DNA from: an uncultured Methanobrevibacter sp.
Lineage (GTDB): Archaea; Methanobacteriota; Methanobacteria; Methanobacteriales; Methanobacteriaceae
Length of the DNA: 64,000 nt
Direction of reading: 5' to 3'
Assembly: GCA_900314635.1 (NCBI GenBank)
Contig: OMVY01000003.1
Span: 62,001 to 126,000 of the forward strand
The translations under genes were made by a program, and so were the position numbers. Position 1 is the stretch's first letter, and every line of letters starts with the position of its first letter. A model generated the notes under the pieces. It saw only the letters and a program-made list of their open reading frames with translations. It had not been told where the DNA came from and did no database searches. This document shows positions 2,898 to 23,238 of this stretch, piece by piece.

Positions 2898-3639
2898 TTT
2901 ATTTGCTCATTTTTTATTATAATTTTTTAGCTGTTTTTACAGCTATTTTCTATTTTTTTTAATAATGCTATTCTAAACTGGTATGTTTTGTCTAAAAATT
3001 TTAAAAAATGTAGATTATTTTTTAAATTATCATGATTAATCATGATTAATTTTAATTAATAATGTTAAAATTTTCATTGTCATTTGATTTTTTCTATTAA
3101 ATTCATGAATTTCTATGTGATTTTCACTCGTTTTTATAATATTTTACATTTCGTATTTTTATGGTTAATTTTTCATTTATCAATCTTATTAACAATTATT
3201 TTTTTCCATTTTTTGAAAAAAATATTCTTTTTCATTTCGAATTTAGGCAATACAAATTTTTTTTTAAAAAATTAGCTGATTTTTCGATATGAAGAAATAG
3301 TAATATTATATATTTTTCATTATTTTTTCAAATAAACTTCTAAAAATTAATATTTTTTTAAAAATTTTAATAAACTGGTTTATTTTATATGAATTTTTAT
3401 TCATTTCGTAGAAAATATCTTATTTTTTAATTAAATAAATTATTTTTTTTAATATTTTTTATGGCATTTTATTCTAAAAATCAATATTAAAATTGAACAT
3501 TATTTAATAATTTTAAAATTTATTTCGTTATGAACTAATTTTCCTTTTGAAAAAATGAATAAACACACTATATAAATCTTTTCTTTTGAACTTAATAGCA
3601 AAACCTTTTTATATGAATGATAAATAATTATAAATAATG
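2898..3639. other. Long AT-rich gap upstream of fdhC
   Basis: About 740 bp of very T/A-rich sequence. A weak open stretch at 3084-3275 is low-complexity and not credible as a gene. The useful signals are near the right end: a TATA element at 3568-3577 and the folded fdhC leader that follows. Confidence 0.7.
3568..3577 (+). promoter_or_regulatory. Probable TATA box of fdhC
   Basis: CTATATAAAT is a good archaeal TATA element. It would place the transcript start near 3595-3600, giving a leader of roughly 180 nt that includes the folded segment at 3640-3728. Confidence 0.5.
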
Positions 3640-10520: not shown

Positions 10521-11057
10521 GTGGGATTGTAATTATTTGCACTGATTTTCCATAATTTCTTATTTTTTCACTATTTTTTATTATTTTTTATACTTTTTTT
10601 ATAGTTTTTTTTCACAATTTTTCACTGATTTTTCTTTTATTTTTCCTTGTGTGTAATAACTACACTTCAATATGTGTAGTTACTACACTCTAAAATGTGT
10701 AGTATCCACACTTTTATTTAGGTTGGCCTAAAAATTCAATTTTTTTTAAAAATTCGTTATGAATTTTTTTTCATATTGGGGATATAATGTGGTTTTTTTA
10801 TTTTTAATTATATTACTTTATTTATTAAAAAATAGTATTTAAAGTTTTTAATTTTCATATAAATAAAAATTAAGTTTTATATTAATATAAAAATAAATAT
10901 TTATTAAAATAATAATATTTAAATGATTTAAAATATATATTAAATATTAGAAATGTGTGAATATAACACAGTATTATTTAAATCTTTATACTTTGATTTC
11001 TGTACACACCTTTATATTAACATAAAACAAAAATTATATCATACACATGGTGAATTT
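10521..11057. other. Control gap between moaA and fwdH
   Basis: No gene. T-rich sequence (10550-10640) follows moaA, then three palindromes with exact 23-bp spacing (10651-10711), then strongly AT-rich promoter-like DNA up to the HTH-ferredoxin gene. Several TATA-like runs occur between 10840 and 10945, too many to choose one. Confidence 0.7.
10651..10711. promoter_or_regulatory. Operator array: three palindromes at 23-bp spacing
   Basis: The sites are GTGTAATAACTACAC (10651-10665), GTGTAGTTACTACAC (10674-10688) and GTGTAGTATCCACAC (10697-10711). The middle one is a perfect 7-1-7 palindrome and the outer two are near matches. Starts are exactly 23 bp apart, about two helical turns, so dimers would bind on nearly the same face. 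The array lies about 345 bp upstream of the fwdH start and 131 bp past moaA. The binding protein is unknown; FwdH itself and the LysR/ModE-like regulator are candidates. Confidence 0.75.
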
Positions 11058-11513
11058 ATGCCAAAACATATAGCATCTGGAATAAAATATTTAGCGGCTT
11101 GCGACTTGAGAAAAAAAGGTCTTTCACAACAGGAGATTTCACAAAAACTTGGTATTGACAGATCAACTGTTTCTCACTACTTGAATGGACGGAACATAAG
11201 TCCTGATTCAATAGAAGTTGCTAAGACTATTCTGGATTTCAATCCTAAAGATTTATTATTGATGTTTAATATTTTATTCAACAATGATTTGGAGATTATA
11301 AAACAGCTGGTGTTGATTTTTGGCTTGAACCATTATGAAACATCAGTTGGGGATGAATGTATTGGTTGTGGATTATGTGTTGATTTGTGTATAATGAATG
11401 CTATTGAATTAGATTCATTAAAAGCTAAAGTAAACCCCCTATTTTGTTGTGGCTGCCTTATGTGTGTTGAGGACTGCCCAACTAAAGCAATTAAAATTTT
11501 GGAGGCAAATTAA
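11058..11513 (+). CDS. fwdH: HTH-ferredoxin protein opening the fwd operon
   Basis: A 151-residue protein combining a helix-turn-helix (about residues 8-55, with GLSQQEISQKLGIDRSTVSHYL) and a C-terminal 2x[4Fe-4S] ferredoxin (CIGCGLCVDLC and CCGCLMCVEDC, about residues 99-145). I chose ATG 11058 over the longer frame from 10953, because GGTGA at 11049-11053 is well placed and the upstream codons look like leader sequence. It is one base upstream of fwdF. Size and position match the first gene of the Methanothermobacter fwd operon (FwdE in the original description, FwdH in some genome annotations). The DNA-binding half argues for an iron-sulfur-sensing regulator, perhaps autoregulatory; this is inference. 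Confidence 0.8.
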   Translation: MPKHIASGIKYLAACDLRKKGLSQQEISQKLGIDRSTVSHYLNGRNISPDSIEVAKTILDFNPKDLLLMFNILFNNDLEIIKQLVLIFGLNHYETSVGDECIGCGLCVDLCIMNAIELDSLKAKVNPLFCCGCLMCVEDCPTKAIKILEAN

Positions 11514-12620
11514 ATGAAAAATACAAAAGAAGTTACTGGAAAAGACTTCGTGATCAGCAGGTCTGCTGGTGATAGAGTTTTATCATTCTGCGACGATGTT
11601 TGTATTGGATGCGGTCTCTGTGCGGACACCTGTCCTGTAGAAGCTATCGCTCTTGAAGATATTGCTCCTATCAAACGTGACTATGGTGATTACAAAAACA
11701 CTTACTTCAGTGGACATGAAAGAATCCAACAAAATGAAGAACTTTTCACTAATAAGAATGTAGCTGTTGCTAAATTGGATATCTGCGCAGATACTTGTGT
11801 TCTTTGTGGTATGTGCAGCGGCGTATGTCCTGCAGGTGCTTTAGACCTTGCTATTGCTGGAGAATCCATCAAGGATAATGAAGCTTACCCAACTCTCATT
11901 CGCGGTGCTGAAATCGACGAAGATGATTGTGTATTCTGTAAAAGATGTGAAACTGCATGTCCTAGAGATGCAATCACCATTGCAAGAAACCTGCCTGAAC
12001 GCAAAGACCTTGTTGTAGGTGAAATCGCACCTGATGAAGAAACCTGTATCAAATGTGGTGCTTGTGCTGAATTATGTCCTGCAGGTGCAATAACCGTTAA
12101 CAAAACTCCTGGCGAAGAAAACATCGTCATCGACGAAGACAAATGTGTATACTGTCTCGTATGTAAGAGAGTTTGTCCTGTTGACGCAATTACCGCAGCA
12201 TGCAGATCCTGTTCCTACGGTGAATATGAATTAGATCCTGCTAAAGCAGTCATCAAAGGAAATGCAATCATCGATGATGATGTATGTATTTCATGCGGAT
12301 GGTGTGAAGGAGTCTGTCCTGAAGGCGCAGCAACTCACGAAAAACCATTCAAAGGTAGTTTAGTAATTGATACTGAAGCATGTGGTACATGTGGTGCATG
12401 TATTGATATCTGCCCATGTGAAGCTTTATACTTCCCTAAATCTACCGGACCAGGTGACAGAGGAACTCAATTGATGATTTACGATGATTACTGTATCCGT
12501 TGTGGAGCATGTGCTAAAGCTTGTCCTAACGACGCTTTAACTGTAACCAGAACCGATATTAATCACACACCAACCAGTTCCAAATCTTGGATTGCAGCAT
12601 TTGATGCTTTAAAAAACTAA
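11514..12620 (+). CDS. fwdF: Polyferredoxin FwdF of formylmethanofuran dehydrogenase
   Basis: A 368-residue polyferredoxin with eight C-x2-C-x2-C-x3-C-P motifs, counted directly (first CIGCGLCADTCP, last CIRCGACAKACP). This predicts eight [4Fe-4S] clusters forming an electron wire for the Fwd complex. The length and cluster number fit FwdF of Methanothermobacter. Its ATG directly follows the fwdH stop (TAA then ATG), indicating coupled translation, with a GGAGG-containing site inside the fwdH end. After fwdF the operon is interrupted by a 324-bp gap before fwdG, which is unusual for this gene set. Confidence 0.95.
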   Translation: MKNTKEVTGKDFVISRSAGDRVLSFCDDVCIGCGLCADTCPVEAIALEDIAPIKRDYGDYKNTYFSGHERIQQNEELFTNKNVAVAKLDICADTCVLCGMCSGVCPAGALDLAIAGESIKDNEAYPTLIRGAEIDEDDCVFCKRCETACPRDAITIARNLPERKDLVVGEIAPDEETCIKCGACAELCPAGAITVNKTPGEENIVIDEDKCVYCLVCKRVCPVDAITAACRSCSYGEYELDPAKAVIKGNAIIDDDVCISCGWCEGVCPEGAATHEKPFKGSLVIDTEACGTCGACIDICPCEALYFPKSTGPGDRGTQLMIYDDYCIRCGACAKACPNDALTVTRTDINHTPTSSKSWIAAFDALKN

Positions 12621-12944
12621 ATAATTAAAGAGCTTGATAAGGAAAAAGCATAAAAAAAGCTTTGATTATTATTTATGAGATTAATATTTTAACATTCATT
12701 CAATTTTATAAAGATTATTTGTATACATAAGAATAAAGTTATTAATTAGTTATTATATAATATATGTAATTGGCGATTTTTAGAAATCTGCTGATATGCA
12801 AATATATTTAGTAATGATTCAAATTTTCGATTTGAATTGATAAGAGGTAATTAAATTAATAATTTTTCTAGGATTTTTAAATTTTAAAAATCATTTACGA
12901 ATTAATTTAATTGGTGATTGTAAACTAAATTTTGGTGATTTTAT
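12621..12944. promoter_or_regulatory. 324-bp gap with inverted repeats splitting the fwd operon
   Basis: No gene. It holds an inverted repeat at 12817-12837 (ATTCAAAT / ATTTGAAT around TTTCG) and another at 12872-12892 (GATTTTTAAA / TTTAAAAATC). A TATA-like run (TTATATAATATATG, about 12753-12766) could be a second promoter for fwdGDBAC. Confidence 0.5.
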
Positions 12945-13175
12945 ATGGAACTTAAAGTAGATCAAGATAGATGTTTAGGTTGCGGGATTTGCGTAATCGC
13001 ATGCCCAGTTAATGCTTCTATCAGCCCGGAAAATGCTGGTGGGCATGGTTCAAAGACAACCGAAACTATTATGATGGTTGAAAATGGATTTATCAAATTA
13101 TTCAATGTTGATAAATGTGACGAATGTGGAACTTGTCAAATGTTCTGCCCTGTAGACGCTATATGGTTAGAATAG
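12945..13175 (+). CDS. fwdG: Ferredoxin-like subunit FwdG
   Basis: A 76-residue 2x[4Fe-4S] protein. The first motif is [13 protein letters not shown] (residues 10-22); the second is [13 protein letters not shown] near residue 58. The linker between them is longer than in plain ferredoxins, as in FwdG proteins. It links the FwdF wire to the catalytic FwdB subunit. ATG 12945 follows a GGTGATTTTAT site, and fwdD starts 10 nt after the stop, so fwdG-D-B-A-C reads as one tight transcript. Confidence 0.93.
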
Positions 13176-13185
13176 GAGTGATAAT

Positions 13186-13758
13186 ATGCATTATGCAAAT
13201 AGTTATTTAGAAAGACCAGTAGTCGGAGACCCACATGTTGACTCTGATGTTGGTAGATTAGAAGTACTTAATTGTATGTTAAACACTGGTTCTGACATTT
13301 ACCAAGGTGCATGTAAGAAAAGAGGCTCCACCTTGAAGGAAGAATACAAAAACGCTTCAGGAACCTGTTACATGGACCCTAGGGATATGGCAAAATTAGG
13401 TGTTAAAAACTGGGATCATGTTCTTGTAAAAACTGATTATGGAGAAGTTGTAGTAAGCGCTGCAAGATCTAGAGATGCTCCTCACGAAGGAACTGTATTT
13501 ATTTGTAAAGGCCCATGGGCTAATACAATTACCAGTCACGAAACCTACTGTTGTTCTGACCCTACTTACAAAGGTATTCACGCTACAGTTGAAAAAACCG
13601 ACAGAGAAGTATTATTAATGGCAGACCTTATGAGATGGGTTTACAAAAAATATGTTGACGAAGAAGATGACGACGTTGTTGAAAATATGGAATCTTTAGG
13701 TGAAAGACCATTCTATAACGGACGTAAATGGGAGGAGTTGGAGAACCATGAGTTATGA
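13186..13758 (+). CDS. fwdD: Formylmethanofuran dehydrogenase subunit D
   Basis: A 190-residue subunit related to the C-terminal dinucleotide-binding domain of molybdopterin oxidoreductases, which in this complex is a separate chain completing the FwdB active site. It contains the stretches [17 protein letters not shown] (about residues 31-47), [11 protein letters not shown] and [17 protein letters not shown]. The C-terminal 40 residues are acidic (EEDDDVVE) and include [19 protein letters not shown] precedes ATG 13186. The last 11 bases overlap the fwdB start, indicating translational coupling. Confidence 0.93.
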
Positions 13759-15148
13759 ACCACCTGTAACAGATTATGATTATATCGTAGAAAACTGTAC
13801 CTGTGCATTCTGTGGATGTAACTGTGACGACCTTGATTTCTTAGTAAAAGACAATCACGTAGTTGCTGTAAGACACGCATGCAGATTAGGTGCAAGTAAA
13901 GTTATGGAAGATTTAGACCAAAGATTAATGGTGCCTATGGTAAGAAACGAAGAAGGAGTACTTACCGAAACCGATTGGGATACTGCATTGGATACTGCAG
14001 CTGAATACATTGCAAATTCCATCAGACCTGTATTCTATGGTTGGTCTGAAACTTCTACCGAATGTATGAAGGAAGGACTTGAACTTGGTGAATACATTGG
14101 TGCTGTACTGGATAACCAGGCAACCATTTGTCACGGACCTTCACTTCAAGCTATGCAAAACGCTGGATACCCTATTCAGACCTTAGGTGAAGTTAAGAAC
14201 AGAGCAGACGTAGTTGTATACTCTGGAAGTAACGCTATGAACTCTCACCCAAGACACCTTGCAAGATGGGCTGTATATCCTCGTGGATACTTCAGACAAA
14301 GAGGAAGATTCGACAGAACTGTTGTAACCATGGATCCAAAATTCTCAGACACTGCAAAATGTTCAGACATGTGGATTGGATTCGAACAAAACGGTGACTA
14401 CGGTTTCTACAATGCAATCAGAGCTGTAATCAAAGGTAAGAAATTACAATCCGAATCCGTTTCAGGTATTCCTGCAGAAGACATCTACGAATTGGTTGAT
14501 GTAATGAAAAACGCAGAATTCGGTGTTCTCTTCTTCGGTTTAGGTTTAACCCACACATTAGGTAAGCAAAGAAACATTGATATTGCTATTAAAATGGTTC
14601 AAGACTTAAACGCTATGAGTAAATGGGGACTTACTCCAATGAGAGGTCACTTCAACGTAAACGGTTTCAACATCTTCATGGCATTCGAAACCGGATGGGC
14701 ATTCGGTGTCGACTTCTGTAGAGGTTGGGGTAGATATATGTTAGGTGAAACCAACACCATCGACTTGTTAGTCAGAAAAGAACCTGACTGTTTCATGGTT
14801 GTTGCAGCTGACCCTGGTGCTCACTTCCCTAACGGAGCAAACCAACACTTAGCCGATATTCCAGTTATCCAAGTGGATATTCACTGGGGACCATCTACCG
14901 AACTCGCTGATGTTGTACTTCCTGGTTCATTCATTTCTGTAGAATGTGCGGGTACAAGTTATCGTATGGATGGAGTTCCTATCTACATGAAGAAGGCTAT
15001 TGACAAGCCAGAAACCTGTCGTGACGACGAATGGATTATACGCGAACTTAAAGAAAGGGTTATGAAACTCAGAGAAGAGACCAACGTAGCTGAAAAATAC
15101 GTACCTAACCCAATCATGGATCTTAAACGATTAGAAAAGGAGGAATAA
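13748..15148 (+). CDS. fwdB: Formylmethanofuran dehydrogenase subunit B (catalytic, tungstopterin)
   Basis: A 466-residue molybdopterin-type catalytic subunit that reduces CO2 to formate inside the Fwd complex before FwdA transfers it to methanofuran. The N-terminal cysteines ([10 protein letters not shown], residues 17-26, and Cys45) bind [4Fe-4S]. ATICHGPS contains Cys128, expected as the tungsten ligand, so this is a cysteine rather than selenocysteine form. The open frame extends upstream to 13700, but ATG 13748 has the GGGAGGAGTTGGAG site just before it and gives the usual N-terminus. It overlaps fwdD by 11 bp and is 3 nt from fwdA. The order B-A-C differs from the A-C-B order I recall for Methanothermobacter. 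Confidence 0.95.
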
Positions 15149-15151
15149 TTA

Positions 15152-16870
15152 ATGGAATATATACTCAAAAATGGAATTGTTTATGACCCTCAAAATGAAA
15201 TAAACGGAGAAACCATGGACATCTTCATTAAAGATGACCAGATTGCAGAATCCGTTTCCGATGACGCTAAAGTCATTGATGTATCTAATAAGATTGTTAT
15301 GCCTGCTGGTGTAGATGTTCACGCACACGTTGCAGGACCAAAATTAGTACTTGGAAGATTATACAGGCCTGAAGACTCAAGAATGGGTGTATCACAAAAA
15401 ACCAAAATCGAAAGAGCGGAAGCTGGATTCTCCATCCCATGTTGTCCTACTACAGGATACAGATACTCAAGAATGGGATACGGAACCGTTTGTGAAGCAG
15501 CTATGCCTCCACTCGAAGCAAAACACACTCACGAAGAAATCGCAACTATTCCAAACATTGATATCAACCCAGTAACCTTATTCGGTAACAACTGGTTCTG
15601 TATGGAATATGCAAGAGAAGGAAGAATTGAAGAAATGGCAGCATATATTGCCGCAATGCTCAGAGTATCCAAAGGATACGGTGTAAAAATCGTAAACCCT
15701 TGTGGTAGTGAAGCATGGGGCTGGGGTCAAAACGTACACGGATACGATGACAAAGCTCCTTACTTTGACGTAACCTCAAGACAACTCGTAGTTGCACTTG
15801 CAAAGGCTAACGAAATGCTCGGACTTCCTCACTCTATCCACATTCACCCTAACGATTTAGGACACCCAGGAAACTATCCTACTACTGTTGAAACCTTGAA
15901 ATCCATTAAGGAAATCAAGAAATCAACCAAGAAAGCAGCAAAAATAAGAGACCAGACTGTTCACAACACTCACTTACAATTCCACGCATACGATGGTACC
16001 AGCTGGAAAGATGCATCCTCCGGTGCAGACAAAGTTGCTGACTTCATCAACCACAACGACTATGTCACTGGTGACGTAGGTCAGGTAACCTTTGATGAAA
16101 CCACTACCATGACTGCAGATGCTCCAATGGAATACGACTTGTTCCAAATCTCCGGATTAAAATGGGCTAACAAGGATATCGAGTGTGAAACCGCAGCAGG
16201 AATCATTCCTTGTATCTACTCACCTAAGACTCCTGTTGGAACATTACAATGGGCTATCGGTCTTGAGTTATTCTTACTCGTAGACAACCCATGGCAAATT
16301 TGTATGAGTACCGACCACCCTAACGCAGGTCCATTCATAAGATACCCAAGAATCATCTCCTGGTTGATGAGTGCTCCTAGAAGAATGGAAATGATTGAAA
16401 ACGGTGAAGTACACAAATGGTCTCACAAACGTACCGGTCTTGCTGGTCTTGACAGAGAATACGACTTCTACGAAATCGCTACAATTACCAGAGCAGCTCC
16501 TGCAAAAATCCACGGATTCCCTGACAGAGGCGCACTTACTCCTGGATACAAAGCAGATATTGCTGTATATGACGTAAACCCTAACGATTTCGACCCATCC
16601 AGAAACCCTGAAATGGTTGAAAGAATATTCACTAGTGCAGCTTACACCATCAAAGATGGTCAAATCCTTGTTAAAGATGGTGACCTTGTTGCAACTAAGC
16701 CAAGCCACGTAATTTGGACTGACGTAAAAGGCTGGGAAAGAGAAGAAGCTCAAGTTCTTAATGAAATGATGCCTTTCTTCACTCAATACTACTCAGTAAA
16801 ATGGGAAAACTATCAAGTGCATGACCACTTCTTATCCAACCCTATCAAAGTAGAGGTACCGGCTAAATAA
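15152..16870 (+). CDS. fwdA: Formylmethanofuran dehydrogenase subunit A (amidohydrolase)
   Basis: A 572-residue amidohydrolase-superfamily subunit that condenses formate with methanofuran at a binuclear metal site. The metal-binding motif [10 protein letters not shown] is near residue 54. Further histidine sites are [12 protein letters not shown] (about residue 228) and [11 protein letters not shown] (about 270), and the late aspartate motif is [10 protein letters not shown] (about 386). The lysine expected as a carboxylated metal bridge lies in the middle section, but I did not pin it down. An AGGAGGAATAATT site immediately precedes ATG 15152. Strong codon bias is shared with the rest of the operon. 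Confidence 0.96.
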
Positions 16871-16886
16871 TTATGGAGATGTTAAG

Positions 16887-17753
16887 ATGAAAACAATTAC
16901 TTTTAATCAAATAAAAACTTCTTCAATTGCTTTAGAGTTCGATGAAGTAATTCCTGATAACATTTACACCTGGGATAACTCTGATTTCGATGCTTACCAA
17001 GTACCTATTGGAAATTCCAGATTCCCAATTACTGATTTCTTCGACATTGTCATTGAAGGAGAAGCAGAATCTCCAGCTGAAGTAAAAATGGTCTTGAATG
17101 GAGATTACGGCAGAGTAAAATACATCGGTTGCAAAATGTCTGCTGGTGAAATCATTGTAAACGGTAACGCAGACCTTCACGCTGGTGCTGAAATGTCCGG
17201 TGGAAAAGTAACTGTCCATGGTAATGTAGAAGCTCATGCTGGTCGTGAAATGTCCGGTGGAAAACTCGAAATCATGGGTAATACCAAAGAGTTCTGTGGT
17301 GCTTCCTACATTGGTGAATGGAGAGGTATGACTGGTGGAGAAATCATTGTGCACGGTAATGCTGGAAAACAGTGCGGTGAATGTTTAACCGGTGGTAGCA
17401 TTCACGTATTAGGTGACTGTGATATTCTTGCTGGTATTCACATGACCAAAGGTGTTATTGAAATCGACGGTAATGTAAACCGTTGGCCGGGAGGTCAAAT
17501 GAAAAACGGTAACATCATCATTCACGGTAAAGTTGGAAGATTACTCGAAGGTTTCGTAGAACAAGGTATTGTAACCGATCCTGAAGTTCAAGGAAAAGTC
17601 TATCCTGGTAAATACATCGAATATAAGGGAGATATTGCTTTAAACGGTAAAGGTGCTTTATACATCGATGCTGAGAAAAACAGAGACAGATTATCCACTT
17701 GGATTGAAGAAGACGACGAATATAACGCTATTAGAGTATACAGAGAACAATAA
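16887..17753 (+). CDS. fwdC: Formylmethanofuran dehydrogenase subunit C (beta-helix)
   Basis: A 288-residue structural subunit. Residues about 70-230 contain repeating glycine-rich turns ([40 protein letters not shown]), the right-handed beta-helix also found in the glutamate synthase alpha C-terminal domain. It packs against FwdA and FwdB. TGGAGATGTTAAG precedes ATG 16887, 16 nt after fwdA. It is the last recognised fwd gene, but a small acidic protein follows after only 22 nt. Confidence 0.95.
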
Positions 17754-19995: not shown

Positions 19996-21687
19996 TTACT
20001 GTTCGAAAATTAAATCCATATCCTCAATAGGCATTACGGTCTCTTCGGATTTGACATCGATATTTATTCCATTTTCCTTAATCACTGCTATTGAATTCAA
20101 ACCGCTTCCAGCAACAATTCCAAAGTTGTAATTGTCTACTTTTGCATTATAAACCAATTCTCTTGGCTTTCCGATTTTCAGCACGGAAAAATGGTTTTTC
20201 AATATCTTGTCCAATATCTCCTCGCTATGAGGCCTTGCAATATATGGAACTTCCTTTATTGAAGCAAGAACTTTCTTGGTTCCTTTTTGAGTTATGCTTT
20301 CCAGATTCTTGAATATGAAAATCTTGTGAGGATCTATTGAAGATCCGTTATAGGATATCATTTCAATAAAAAGCGGAGGTTTTCCAAGTTCTAGCAGTCC
20401 TCCATACTTTGGAGTGCACATTATTCCATTATTAATCAGTATGCCATCTATGGTTAAACTGCAGACGGTAGCTATTCCTAATTTTGTGTCATCTTGAGGA
20501 TGTTTGACTATTTTAAAATAAGGATTGATATATTTTGGAAGATTTTCATAAATCCCCTTCATGATTTCCAGGGCGCTGTCTATATCCTTTTTATTTAAAT
20601 ATGAAATATTAGCTATGATATTTCCTGAGTTTTCATCGATGTCATAATCAACAGAACTGATTCTATTCAATGACTTGGTTAAGATAAATGGAGTTTTCTT
20701 ATATTCAATTTTCTTAGCAGGTTTCATATTGTATTTGGATGTTTTGATTTCCTTTAATTTTGAATAATCAAAGAGCTCCTCTCCGGTTTTGATATCAACA
20801 TCATAACCGATTTCCTGAGCTGCACAAAATGGTGTGATTCCTCCAACCACAGCTATTCCAACCATGTCTTCAGGGACGGGAATTCCAAGGAGGCTTTCGC
20901 CGATTTCTCCAATTTCAAGAACTCCTCCGATTCCACATTTTTTCAGATTTTCGATAATCTCCTTTGCTTTTTCAAGGTTTGAGCCAGGTATGGTTCTGAA
21001 GTTTGCAGGAATATCTCCGTTTCCATCTTCAACTACATTGAGGACGGAGGTCATGTCTTTTGCGATGAATGCCTCCAAAGGTGAAATGGATGTCTTTTTA
21101 TAGGAGATAAGTTCTGAAAATTTGGTTGGAGCATAATCTTCAATGCTTACAAGTCCGCCGTATTGTGGAATTGTAGGTATTCCATTCTTTAAAAGTATTC
21201 CATCTATGGTTGTACCGCAGATGGTTTTAATTATATATCCTGTCTTTCCATTGATTTCGCCTAGTTCCTCGTTAATCAATGGACTAACACAGACTCCTGA
21301 TTCAAAGACTTTCTTTATGATGTTGAATGCCTCTTTATCAAGAATGTTTGAAGTATTGACTATTACATTTCCTTTCCTTGTTGCATAGTCAAAGCTGGTT
21401 TGGTAAATCTTTTCTTCAAATTTGGAGAATGTGAAATCAACCTGGTCATAGATCAGTCCCTTTTCGAGTTCTATCCTACCATAATCTGTGATTATTCTGC
21501 CTGAATAACCTTTTCGCTCGGTATATCCCTTTTCATCAAGAATTTGCATGTGATATCTTACAGCACGTTCTCCAAGGTTATAACCCTTATTTCTAAGTTC
21601 ATTAGCTATTACTTTTGAACCTATCGGCTTGTCATGATTATTTAGAATTCTTAGAATTTCTATCATTCTATGTTCAGATTCTGACAT
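19996..21687 (-). CDS. nrpR: NrpR, repressor of nitrogen assimilation genes
   Basis: A 563-residue full-length NrpR: one N-terminal winged helix (about residues 1-75; KVIANELRNKGYNLGERAVRYH) and two NrpR/DUF128 effector domains (about 85-310 and 330-560). Each domain has the IDG[IV]L[LI]xNGI-P-x-YGGL motif. In methanogens NrpR binds GGAA-N6-TTCC and releases it when 2-oxoglutarate signals nitrogen shortage. ATG 21687 follows AGGGGATTAG. It is downstream of glnA on the same strand, and a perfect NrpR operator lies upstream of glnA, so its main local target is clear. I saw no operator in its own short upstream gap. Confidence 0.93.
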   Translation of the reverse strand: MSESEHRMIEILRILNNHDKPIGSKVIANELRNKGYNLGERAVRYHMQILDEKGYTERKGYSGRIITDYGRIELEKGLIYDQVDFTFSKFEEKIYQTSFDYATRKGNVIVNTSNILDKEAFNIIKKVFESGVCVSPLINEELGEINGKTGYIIKTICGTTIDGILLKNGIPTIPQYGGLVSIEDYAPTKFSELISYKKTSISPLEAFIAKDMTSVLNVVEDGNGDIPANFRTIPGSNLEKAKEIIENLKKCGIGGVLEIGEIGESLLGIPVPEDMVGIAVVGGITPFCAAQEIGYDVDIKTGEELFDYSKLKEIKTSKYNMKPAKKIEYKKTPFILTKSLNRISSVDYDIDENSGNIIANISYLNKKDIDSALEIMKGIYENLPKYINPYFKIVKHPQDDTKLGIATVCSLTIDGILINNGIMCTPKYGGLLELGKPPLFIEMISYNGSSIDPHKIFIFKNLESITQKGTKKVLASIKEVPYIARPHSEEILDKILKNHFSVLKIGKPRELVYNAKVDNYNFGIVAGSGLNSIAVIKENGINIDVKSEETVMPIEDMDLIFEQ

Positions 21688-21817: not shown

Positions 21818-23161
21818 TTATATGTTTAAGTATTTTCTTTGCTCGTATCCGAATACCTGTACTCTGTATTCGTCCCATTCTTCATATTTTGATTCCAGGA
21901 ATGCATTGAATATGTGTTCTCCAAGAGCTTCCTTGAGAAGTTCGCTTTCTTCAAATGTGTGGTATGCTTCCCAAAGACTTGATGGTAAAAGTTCAATTCC
22001 ATGTTCTTCAAGCTCTTCTTCGCTTAATTCATAAAGGTTGAGCTCGATAGGTTCTCCGGGATCGATTTTATTCTTGATGCCGTCCATTCCGGCTTTCAAC
22101 ATTACAGTGAATGCAAGGTAAGGGTTGCATGCAGGGTCAGGACTTCTGTATTCGATACGGGTTGCTTTTCCACGTGCTGCAGGAACTCTAATCAAAGTGG
22201 AACGGTTAGAAGTACCATAGGAGATGTAAACTGGAGCTTCGTATCCAGGAACCAATCTTTTGTATGAGTTTACAATAGGATTTGTAACTGCTGTCAGGGC
22301 AGCTGAATGTTTAATTAAACCTCCAATAAACCATTTGGCTTCTTGAGAGAGTCCGTCTTCGCTGTTTTCATCATAGAAAATGTTTTCTCCATCTTTAAAC
22401 AGGCTTTGGTGGCAGTGCATTCCACTACCGTTTTCTCCAAAGAATGGTTTTGGCATGAAGGTTACTCTGTAATCCAGTCCATCGAAATCTGCCATGTTAG
22501 CTACAATAGCTTTAATAGCTTGTTTGAATGTAACTACAGCGTCAGCGGTTTTCAATGCGTCGTCAAATTTGAATGCGATTTCGTTTTGTCCAGGACCTAC
22601 TTCGTGGTGGCTTGCTTCCACATCAAATCCTAATTCTTCGAGATTTGTGGTTATTTCTCTTCTAAAGTCAGTTCCTTTATCAACTGGTTCTACATCGAAA
22701 TAATTTGCATTGTCGTGAGGAATAGGCAATCCTTCATCATCAGTATCTACAATAAAGAACTCTGGCTCTGGTCCGATATTGTATGTGTATCCTTCCTCTT
22801 TAATTTCAGCTAATGCTTTTTTAAGAATGCTTCTAGGGTCACCAGCAAATGGTTTTCCATCAGGTGTGTAAACATCGCAGATAAATCTGCAAGATGCAGA
22901 CTCTTCAGGCCTCCATGATAATGGGGAGTATGTTGTTATGTCAGGTTTTAAAACAAGGTCGCTTGAGTTAATTCCAACAAATCCTGCAATTGAAGATCCG
23001 TCAAAGAGAATTCCGTTTGTGAATAGGTCTTCCAGGTTTCCAAGTTTGCATGGGATAGACACGTTTTTTGGAATTCCATGAAGGTCAACAAATTGAAGTC
23101 TGATAAACTTGATATTGTCTGCTTTCATCCTTTTAGTTATCTTTTCGATTTTTTCATCCAT
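21818..23161 (-). CDS. glnA: Glutamine synthetase type I
   Basis: A 447-residue type I enzyme that makes glutamine from glutamate, ammonia and ATP. It shows the expected motifs: [10 protein letters not shown] near residue 52, [17 protein letters not shown], the [14 protein letters not shown] glutamate/metal site, and NRSTLIRVP. Its length, and the lack of an adenylylation-type insertion, suit the alpha subtype common in archaea and Gram-positives. The ATG at 23161 is better than the upstream TTG at 23164; GAGCTGAT at 23165-23172 on the minus strand is the ribosome site. An NrpR operator overlaps the predicted transcript start, and nrpR lies downstream. Confidence 0.96.
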
Positions 23162-23238
23162 CAAATCAGCTCATTGATATCTTTATATGATAATTTTTGA
23201 AATTCATTAATTTTCAAATCATACAATATATTCTATTC

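Follow-up and report, generated by a model that had tools for sequence, protein, structure and literature searches.

Introduction

Formylmethanofuran dehydrogenase is the entry point of CO2 into methanogenesis, and almost nothing is known of how it is tuned in the hydrogenotrophic methanogens of rumen and gut. According to a review, the tungsten operon fwdHFGDACB is formed constitutively in Methanothermobacter, and in the same genus Tfx binds downstream of the fmdECB promoter (PMC3087415). Tfx resembles the protein considered here, FwdH, in that the gene for a helix–turn–helix (HTH) protein adjoins a formylmethanofuran dehydrogenase operon. A similar arrangement, with the gene for an HTH_3-class protein next to its operator, is found in the lambda/434-type cI operator clusters and with the controller (C) proteins of restriction–modification systems. 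In phage lambda, the spacings of OR1, OR2 and OR3 are 24 and 23 bp. In the openly accessible literature that we searched, we found neither a description of an operator for fwd nor a regulatory role ascribed to FwdH.

Results

The window, i.e. the whole 64-kb stretch of DNA that was analysed, contains a 537-bp intergenic region of 17% GC between moaA (end 10520) and fwdH (start 11058). Three palindromes lie in this region with start-to-start spacings of 23 + 23 bp, which can be read directly at 10651, 10674 and 10697 (Table 1), in agreement with the initial annotation, which had reported exact 23-bp intervals and a perfect 7-1-7 palindrome in the middle. The motif GTGTA-N5-TACAC with ≤1 mismatch matches only these three copies in the window, and its exact form occurs only as copies 1 and 2 in the 2.29-Mb genome. 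As such a low-GC intergenic region holds many simple sequences, the array might have arisen as a chance repeat or be a relic of some mobile or CRISPR-like element; however, the genome has no further exact copies, the positions of the sites are fixed across 17 genera, and 4000 dinucleotide shuffles of the region yielded a mean of 0.017 sites with ≤1 mismatch, no equally spaced triple and likewise no pair at 16–31 bp. We consider such an origin extremely improbable, with chance ruled out by the shuffles and by positional conservation, and a CRISPR or iteron array rejected because there are only three copies, their promoter position is conserved and no such genes adjoin them.

The start codon of fwdH (11058) is 347 bp downstream of the array, and the core promoter is located elsewhere. 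The 23-bp interval had been equated with about two helical turns and taken as phasing on one DNA face. Two turns are 21 bp, and 23 bp makes 2.19 turns at 10.5 bp per turn; as spacings of 23–24 bp correspond to 2.2–2.3 turns, which is no integral number, the same-face argument is weak and not strict.

We then compared 111 fwdH promoters from 17 genera and four families, with positions counted from the start codon of the fwdH orthologues. At −104, the core GTGT-N7-ACAC (≤1 mismatch of eight) is present in 105 of the 111 promoters and 16 of the 17 genera; its half-site centres are 10 bp apart, and a TATA-like hexamer starts 3–5 bp after the site in 101 promoters. At −27, directly before the Shine–Dalgarno sequence GGTG, the palindrome is found in 74 promoters from 15 genera; in most genera other than that of the window, it is a complete GTGTA-N5-TACAC. 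Both proximal sites are kept in families f2, f3 and f4. The distal site was detected in 74 of ~105 sufficiently long upstream regions, in seven genera, mostly at about −350 to −363 and, in g1, the genus of the window, between −384 and −411. The sequence of copy 2, GTGTAGTTACTACAC, occurs with ≤1 mismatch in 84 of 139 family genomes (a reversed control gave few matches), and most genomes of g9, a genus neighbouring g1, carry the same 15-mer ~350 bp before fwdH. Family members named in a search of genome contigs included Methanobrevibacter olleyae, millerae, thaueri, filiformis, cuticularis and curvatus, with Ca. Methanovirga and Ca. Methanobinarius as further family names. The initial annotation had taken the site for an operator of the fwd operon that relatives would share, and the same palindrome, a predicted operator, is indeed present in the fwdH promoters of relatives. 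Judged from these sequences, the palindromes are part of a putative protein-binding control region across the whole class Methanobacteria.

Conservation of the spacing, which had also been expected in related species, was not found. The 23-bp triple is present in the window species only, a 24-bp pair in 10 of the 11 g1 relatives with a complete region, and mostly a single distal copy in g9; in other genera the distal copy is single. Since the g1 relatives have a 24-bp pair and g9 mostly one copy, we rejected exact 23-bp phasing as a shared, conserved property. In the window species, the −27 copy is reduced to its right half, as in the rest of g1. Because the triple is particular to this species, in which the −104 and −27 copies have decayed, the array appears to be the distal end of a more ancient control region, amplified locally. 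The view of the array as the main control point is supported as regards control of fwd, but the class-wide points are −104 and −27, and the array is a distal elaboration.

Table 1. Coordinates in the window of the fwdH upstream elements and the fwd genes
Feature	Position	Strand	Sequence	Remarks
Distal operator copy 1	10651-10665		GTGTAATAACTACAC	−407 from fwdH ATG; exact GTGTA-N5-TACAC
Distal operator copy 2	10674-10688		GTGTAGTTACTACAC	perfect 7-1-7 palindrome
Distal operator copy 3	10697-10711		GTGTAGTATCCACAC	one mismatch, right half
Second, different palindrome	10717-10732		TTTAGG-N4-CCTAAA	just 3′ of distal operator; conserved in genera g1 and g9
Conserved block	10753-10788		TTCGTTATGAA...ATATTGGGGATATAAT	genus g1 version AATTCGATATAAA..TTACATATTGGAGATATAATT
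Promoter-proximal operator	10955-10969		GTGTGAATATAACAC	−103 here = relatives' −104; GTGT/ACAC core intact, inner pair changed
TATA-like box	10975-10984	+	TATTTAAATC	5 bp after proximal operator; relatives TATATAAATC
Leader operator	11032-11046		AATTATATCATACAC	degenerate; right half TACAC alone kept
Shine–Dalgarno	11049-11053	+	GGTGA	directly 3′ of leader operator
fwdH	11058-11513	+		151 aa, HTH_3 (Cro/cI-type) + 2[4Fe-4S] ferredoxin; first gene of operon; proposed regulator
fwdF polyferredoxin	11514-12620	+		NCBIfam FMH_DH_FwdF above cut-off
fwdG ferredoxin	12945-13175	+		assigned by position; no NCBIfam model reaches its cut-off
fwdD	13186-13758	+		closest NCBIfam model FwdD, score under its cut-off
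fwdB	13748-15148	+		
fwdA	15152-16870	+		
fwdC	16887-17753	+		

Archaeal transcription start points are set by the distance from the TATA box. With a TATA box at ~−85, this spacing rule puts the start point near −57 from the ATG, so that the −104 site would lie at ~−47 to −33, where it touches the BRE, and the −27 site would cover ~+30 to +44. The position of the −104 site just 5′ of BRE/TATA, with its fixed 3–5 bp gap, would suit an activator: FwdH or another factor could recruit TBP/TFB there, and the distal sites could be upstream activating sequences, as they lie far upstream and have been strengthened in the window species while the proximal sites decayed. However, the −27 site of 15 genera lies in the leader, downstream of the inferred start point, a location typical of repression or a roadblock, and we regard activation as rather unlikely.

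At the leader position, the site (−26) is GTGTGATTAACACAC in all g19 genomes; g18 has GTGTGATTAGCACAC and the f4 genome TTGTAGTAAAAACAC. The g19 version carries A·T to G·C changes at the fifth base pair on both sides. Two-sided A·T to G·C change in g18/g19, the location directly before the Shine–Dalgarno sequence and the good folding of the array as RNA (z = −4.7) would be in keeping with palindromes that act as RNA, in leader hairpins forming an attenuator, a terminator or a ribosome-access switch. Yet the −104 copy is upstream of the TATA box and thus not part of the transcript. Hairpins in the leader are weak, at −4.5 to −6.1 kcal/mol, and do not surpass those of shuffled sequences, and the distal site conserves sequence rather than pairing. 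An Rfam search for an RNA element gave no match. An RNA function is therefore very doubtful.

Further elements surround these sites. The second palindrome, just 3′ of the distal operator, reads ATTTTAGGTNNACCTAAAA in most g9 loci, and the conserved block ends in ATATTGGAGATATAAT in g1. The motif TTCGWTATGAA occurs exactly seven times in the genome and three times in the window (3283-3293, 3524-3534 and 10753-10763); two of these copies precede the formate transporter/fdh genes, the third is 42 bp past the palindrome array, and it is possibly an element common to two W/Mo-enzyme operons, fwd and fdh. In L132, L133 and most g9 loci, an inverted repeat, GTAATAC-N15-GTATTAC, is placed ~60–100 bp after the distal site, between it and the fwdH promoter; its half-site centres are 22 bp apart, a geometry that we take to be that of NikR operators. 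The fwd operon has an internal gap of 324 bp between fwdF and fwdG (12621-12944), and downstream of it lie an nrpR-type repressor gene and an adjoining glutamine synthetase gene (19996-21687, −; 21818-23164, −).

Targets beyond fwd are few. Elsewhere in 18 genomes of several genera, exact GTGTA-N5-TACAC sites are no more frequent than matches to the reversed control, and those inspected are mostly inside coding sequence. A wider regulon was rejected, as scanning the window's genome for exact and one-mismatch sites and the 18 relatives for exact ones gave mostly chance or coding matches. The upstream region of fdh, which the initial annotation had proposed to search, has no site within one mismatch near the promoter in the window. 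The one clear second target is an operon for ferredoxin and polyferredoxin in g9; most loci having the operon carry the 15-mer known from fwdH at −359 to −363 relative to the ATG, sometimes with a second copy 50 bp further upstream. This operon, whose polyferredoxin is FwdF-like, lies directly upstream of fwdH in L145, L151 and other g9 loci and shares the distal operator, which suggests a regulon of electron carriers for formylmethanofuran dehydrogenase. Two related g15 genomes have an exact site before an Hsp20-like gene (L195:1614-1628, L197:1649-1663), which makes this gene a possible extra target. So small a regulon, comprising one or two operons, speaks for a regulator that acts locally, and near-exclusive targeting of fwd is what a local autoregulator would predict.

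FwdH is encoded immediately downstream of the site region in all 111 loci and matches Pfam HTH_3 above cut-off (E = 2e-9). Its recognition helix, RSTVSHYLNGRN, is nearly invariant (96/98 at most positions), and Cys 101, 104, 107, 111, 130, 133, 136 and 140 are invariant among 34 sequences. The AlphaFold2 model built with 34 sequences is confident in both domains (pLDDT 92.9, pTM 0.84), with helices 24-31 and 35-42 forming the HTH and the C-terminal half a ferredoxin fold. The solved structures that match the model best cover the ferredoxin half, and none is a full-length analogue at E < 0.001. Using phmmer against PDB chains, we found DBP48 as the best match of the HTH, followed by C.AhdI and, weakly, the 434/lambda repressors; the scores for C.AhdI and these repressors are weak. 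We found full-length FwdH only in Methanobacteria: a phylum search returned nothing beyond the class, and outside it the contig search gave nothing but short, partial matches to the HTH in Pseudomonas.

In the genomes of g12, which by inference are Methanosphaera-like, fwdG, D, B, A and C persist in this order but fwdH is absent; of the four checked, three lack a site before fwdG and the other has a weak one. This co-loss is partly trivial because the site would vanish along with the fwdH promoter. In these loci (L338-L341), fwdF is also missing at its usual place, and small ferredoxin genes and nrpR are found upstream. FwdH of g18/g19 carries D34N and N50R where the outer A·T pair of the operator has become G·C; the correspondence is suggestive and is not clean covariation.

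Alternatively, the operator could be read by another protein, e.g. a LysR-type regulator or a W/Mo-, formate- or hydrogen-responsive factor, FwdH being an electron-transfer protein with a vestigial HTH. The window does encode a 299-aa protein near fdh with a LysR-family HTH (PF00126) and no other recognised domain (412-1311, −), with fdhC-fdhA-fdhB and an FmdE-like gene close by, and TTCGWTATGAA is common to the regions upstream of fwd and fdh. Against this, GTGTA-N5-TACAC has almost one target operon, unlike what is expected of a global W/Mo regulator, it is lacking within one mismatch at the fdh promoter of the window, and the strong conservation of the FwdH HTH means that it is no vestige. 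We find another reader unlikely and, of the two candidates named by the initial annotation, favour the FwdH-like over the LysR-like protein; the latter is a candidate formate or W/Mo regulator.

Discussion

Our data suggest that the array is probably the distal part of a multi-site fwdHFGDBAC operator, with FwdH as its most likely reader, and that it would serve negative autoregulation with sensing of the cluster state. FwdH dimers would occupy the 15-bp GTGTA-N5-TACAC sites, one abutting BRE/TATA (−104) and another in the 5′ leader before the ribosome-binding site (−27). A dimer at −104 would hinder TFB/TBP and so repress, or with suitable orientation could recruit TFB, and one at −27 would hinder escape or elongation. 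The copies 350–410 bp upstream, tripled in the window species, may raise local occupancy via looping or oligomerisation; with intervals of 23–24 bp, the same as in lambda OR, adjacent dimers could be in mutual contact. DNA binding would be set by the state of the iron–sulfur clusters, present or absent, reduced or oxidised, and expression of the first CO2-reducing step would consequently follow the supply of iron or low-potential electrons.

We have moderate confidence in negative autoregulation by FwdH with cluster-state sensing, activation being the strongest alternative. Against this model, a site just upstream of the BRE suits an activator equally, and the distal site keeps a nearly constant distance of ~350–360 bp from two different start codons, those of fwdH and the g9 ferredoxin operon, which the model leaves unaccounted for. 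Given that fwd is reported to be constitutive in Methanothermobacter (PMC3087415), any control would be mild, homeostatic or condition-bound. A class-wide operator and an Fe–S candidate regulator make the control of the tungsten operon testable, and a dedicated operator of this breadth is a possible handle on methane formation. More tentatively, FwdH may be the first known member of an archaeal family of regulators that spans the class, in which a Cro/cI-type repressor with a 2[4Fe-4S] ferredoxin sensor tunes its own operon through promoter-bracketing sites and a distal array according to the low-potential electron or Fe–S supply.

Among methanogen regulators, NrpR also has palindromic operators in promoters, and nrpR lies near fwd in the window. 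NrpR sites have a GGAA/TTCC core in contrast to GTGTA-N5-TACAC, and the initial annotation rightly set the two apart, since neither the sequence nor the base frequencies of the fwd sites contain that core. Tfx binds downstream of its promoter, the position that the −27 site would have; it controls the molybdenum isoenzyme (fmdECB), however, and the PDB chains to which the FwdH HTH has matches at E ≤ 5 include no Tfx structure. Tfx is not known to have an Fe–S domain.

The fwd system shares with the lambda/434 and C-protein class ~15-bp palindromes with half-sites one turn apart and distal as well as proximal sites. Tandem sites 23–24 bp apart, similar to the lambda spacing, occur in the window's genus only (the 23-bp triple and the 24-bp pair). 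The fwd system differs in its archaeal BRE/TATA promoter and metabolic target operon, and binding and cooperativity are predicted here; moreover, the C-terminal half of FwdH is a 2[4Fe-4S] ferredoxin in place of the dimerisation or peptidase domain of that class. IscR and other Fe–S autoregulators resemble the proposed role of FwdH in having their gene at the head of the operon, together with Fe–S ligands and an operator at the promoter. In contrast to the Rrf2 winged helix of IscR, the HTH of FwdH is of Cro/cI type (Pfam gives HTH_3 and no Rrf2 domain), it carries two CxxCxxCxxxC cluster motifs of the bacterial ferredoxin type, and its target would be CO2 reduction rather than cluster assembly. 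If this is true, a Cro/cI HTH joined to a ferredoxin adds a domain combination to the known Fe–S sensors.
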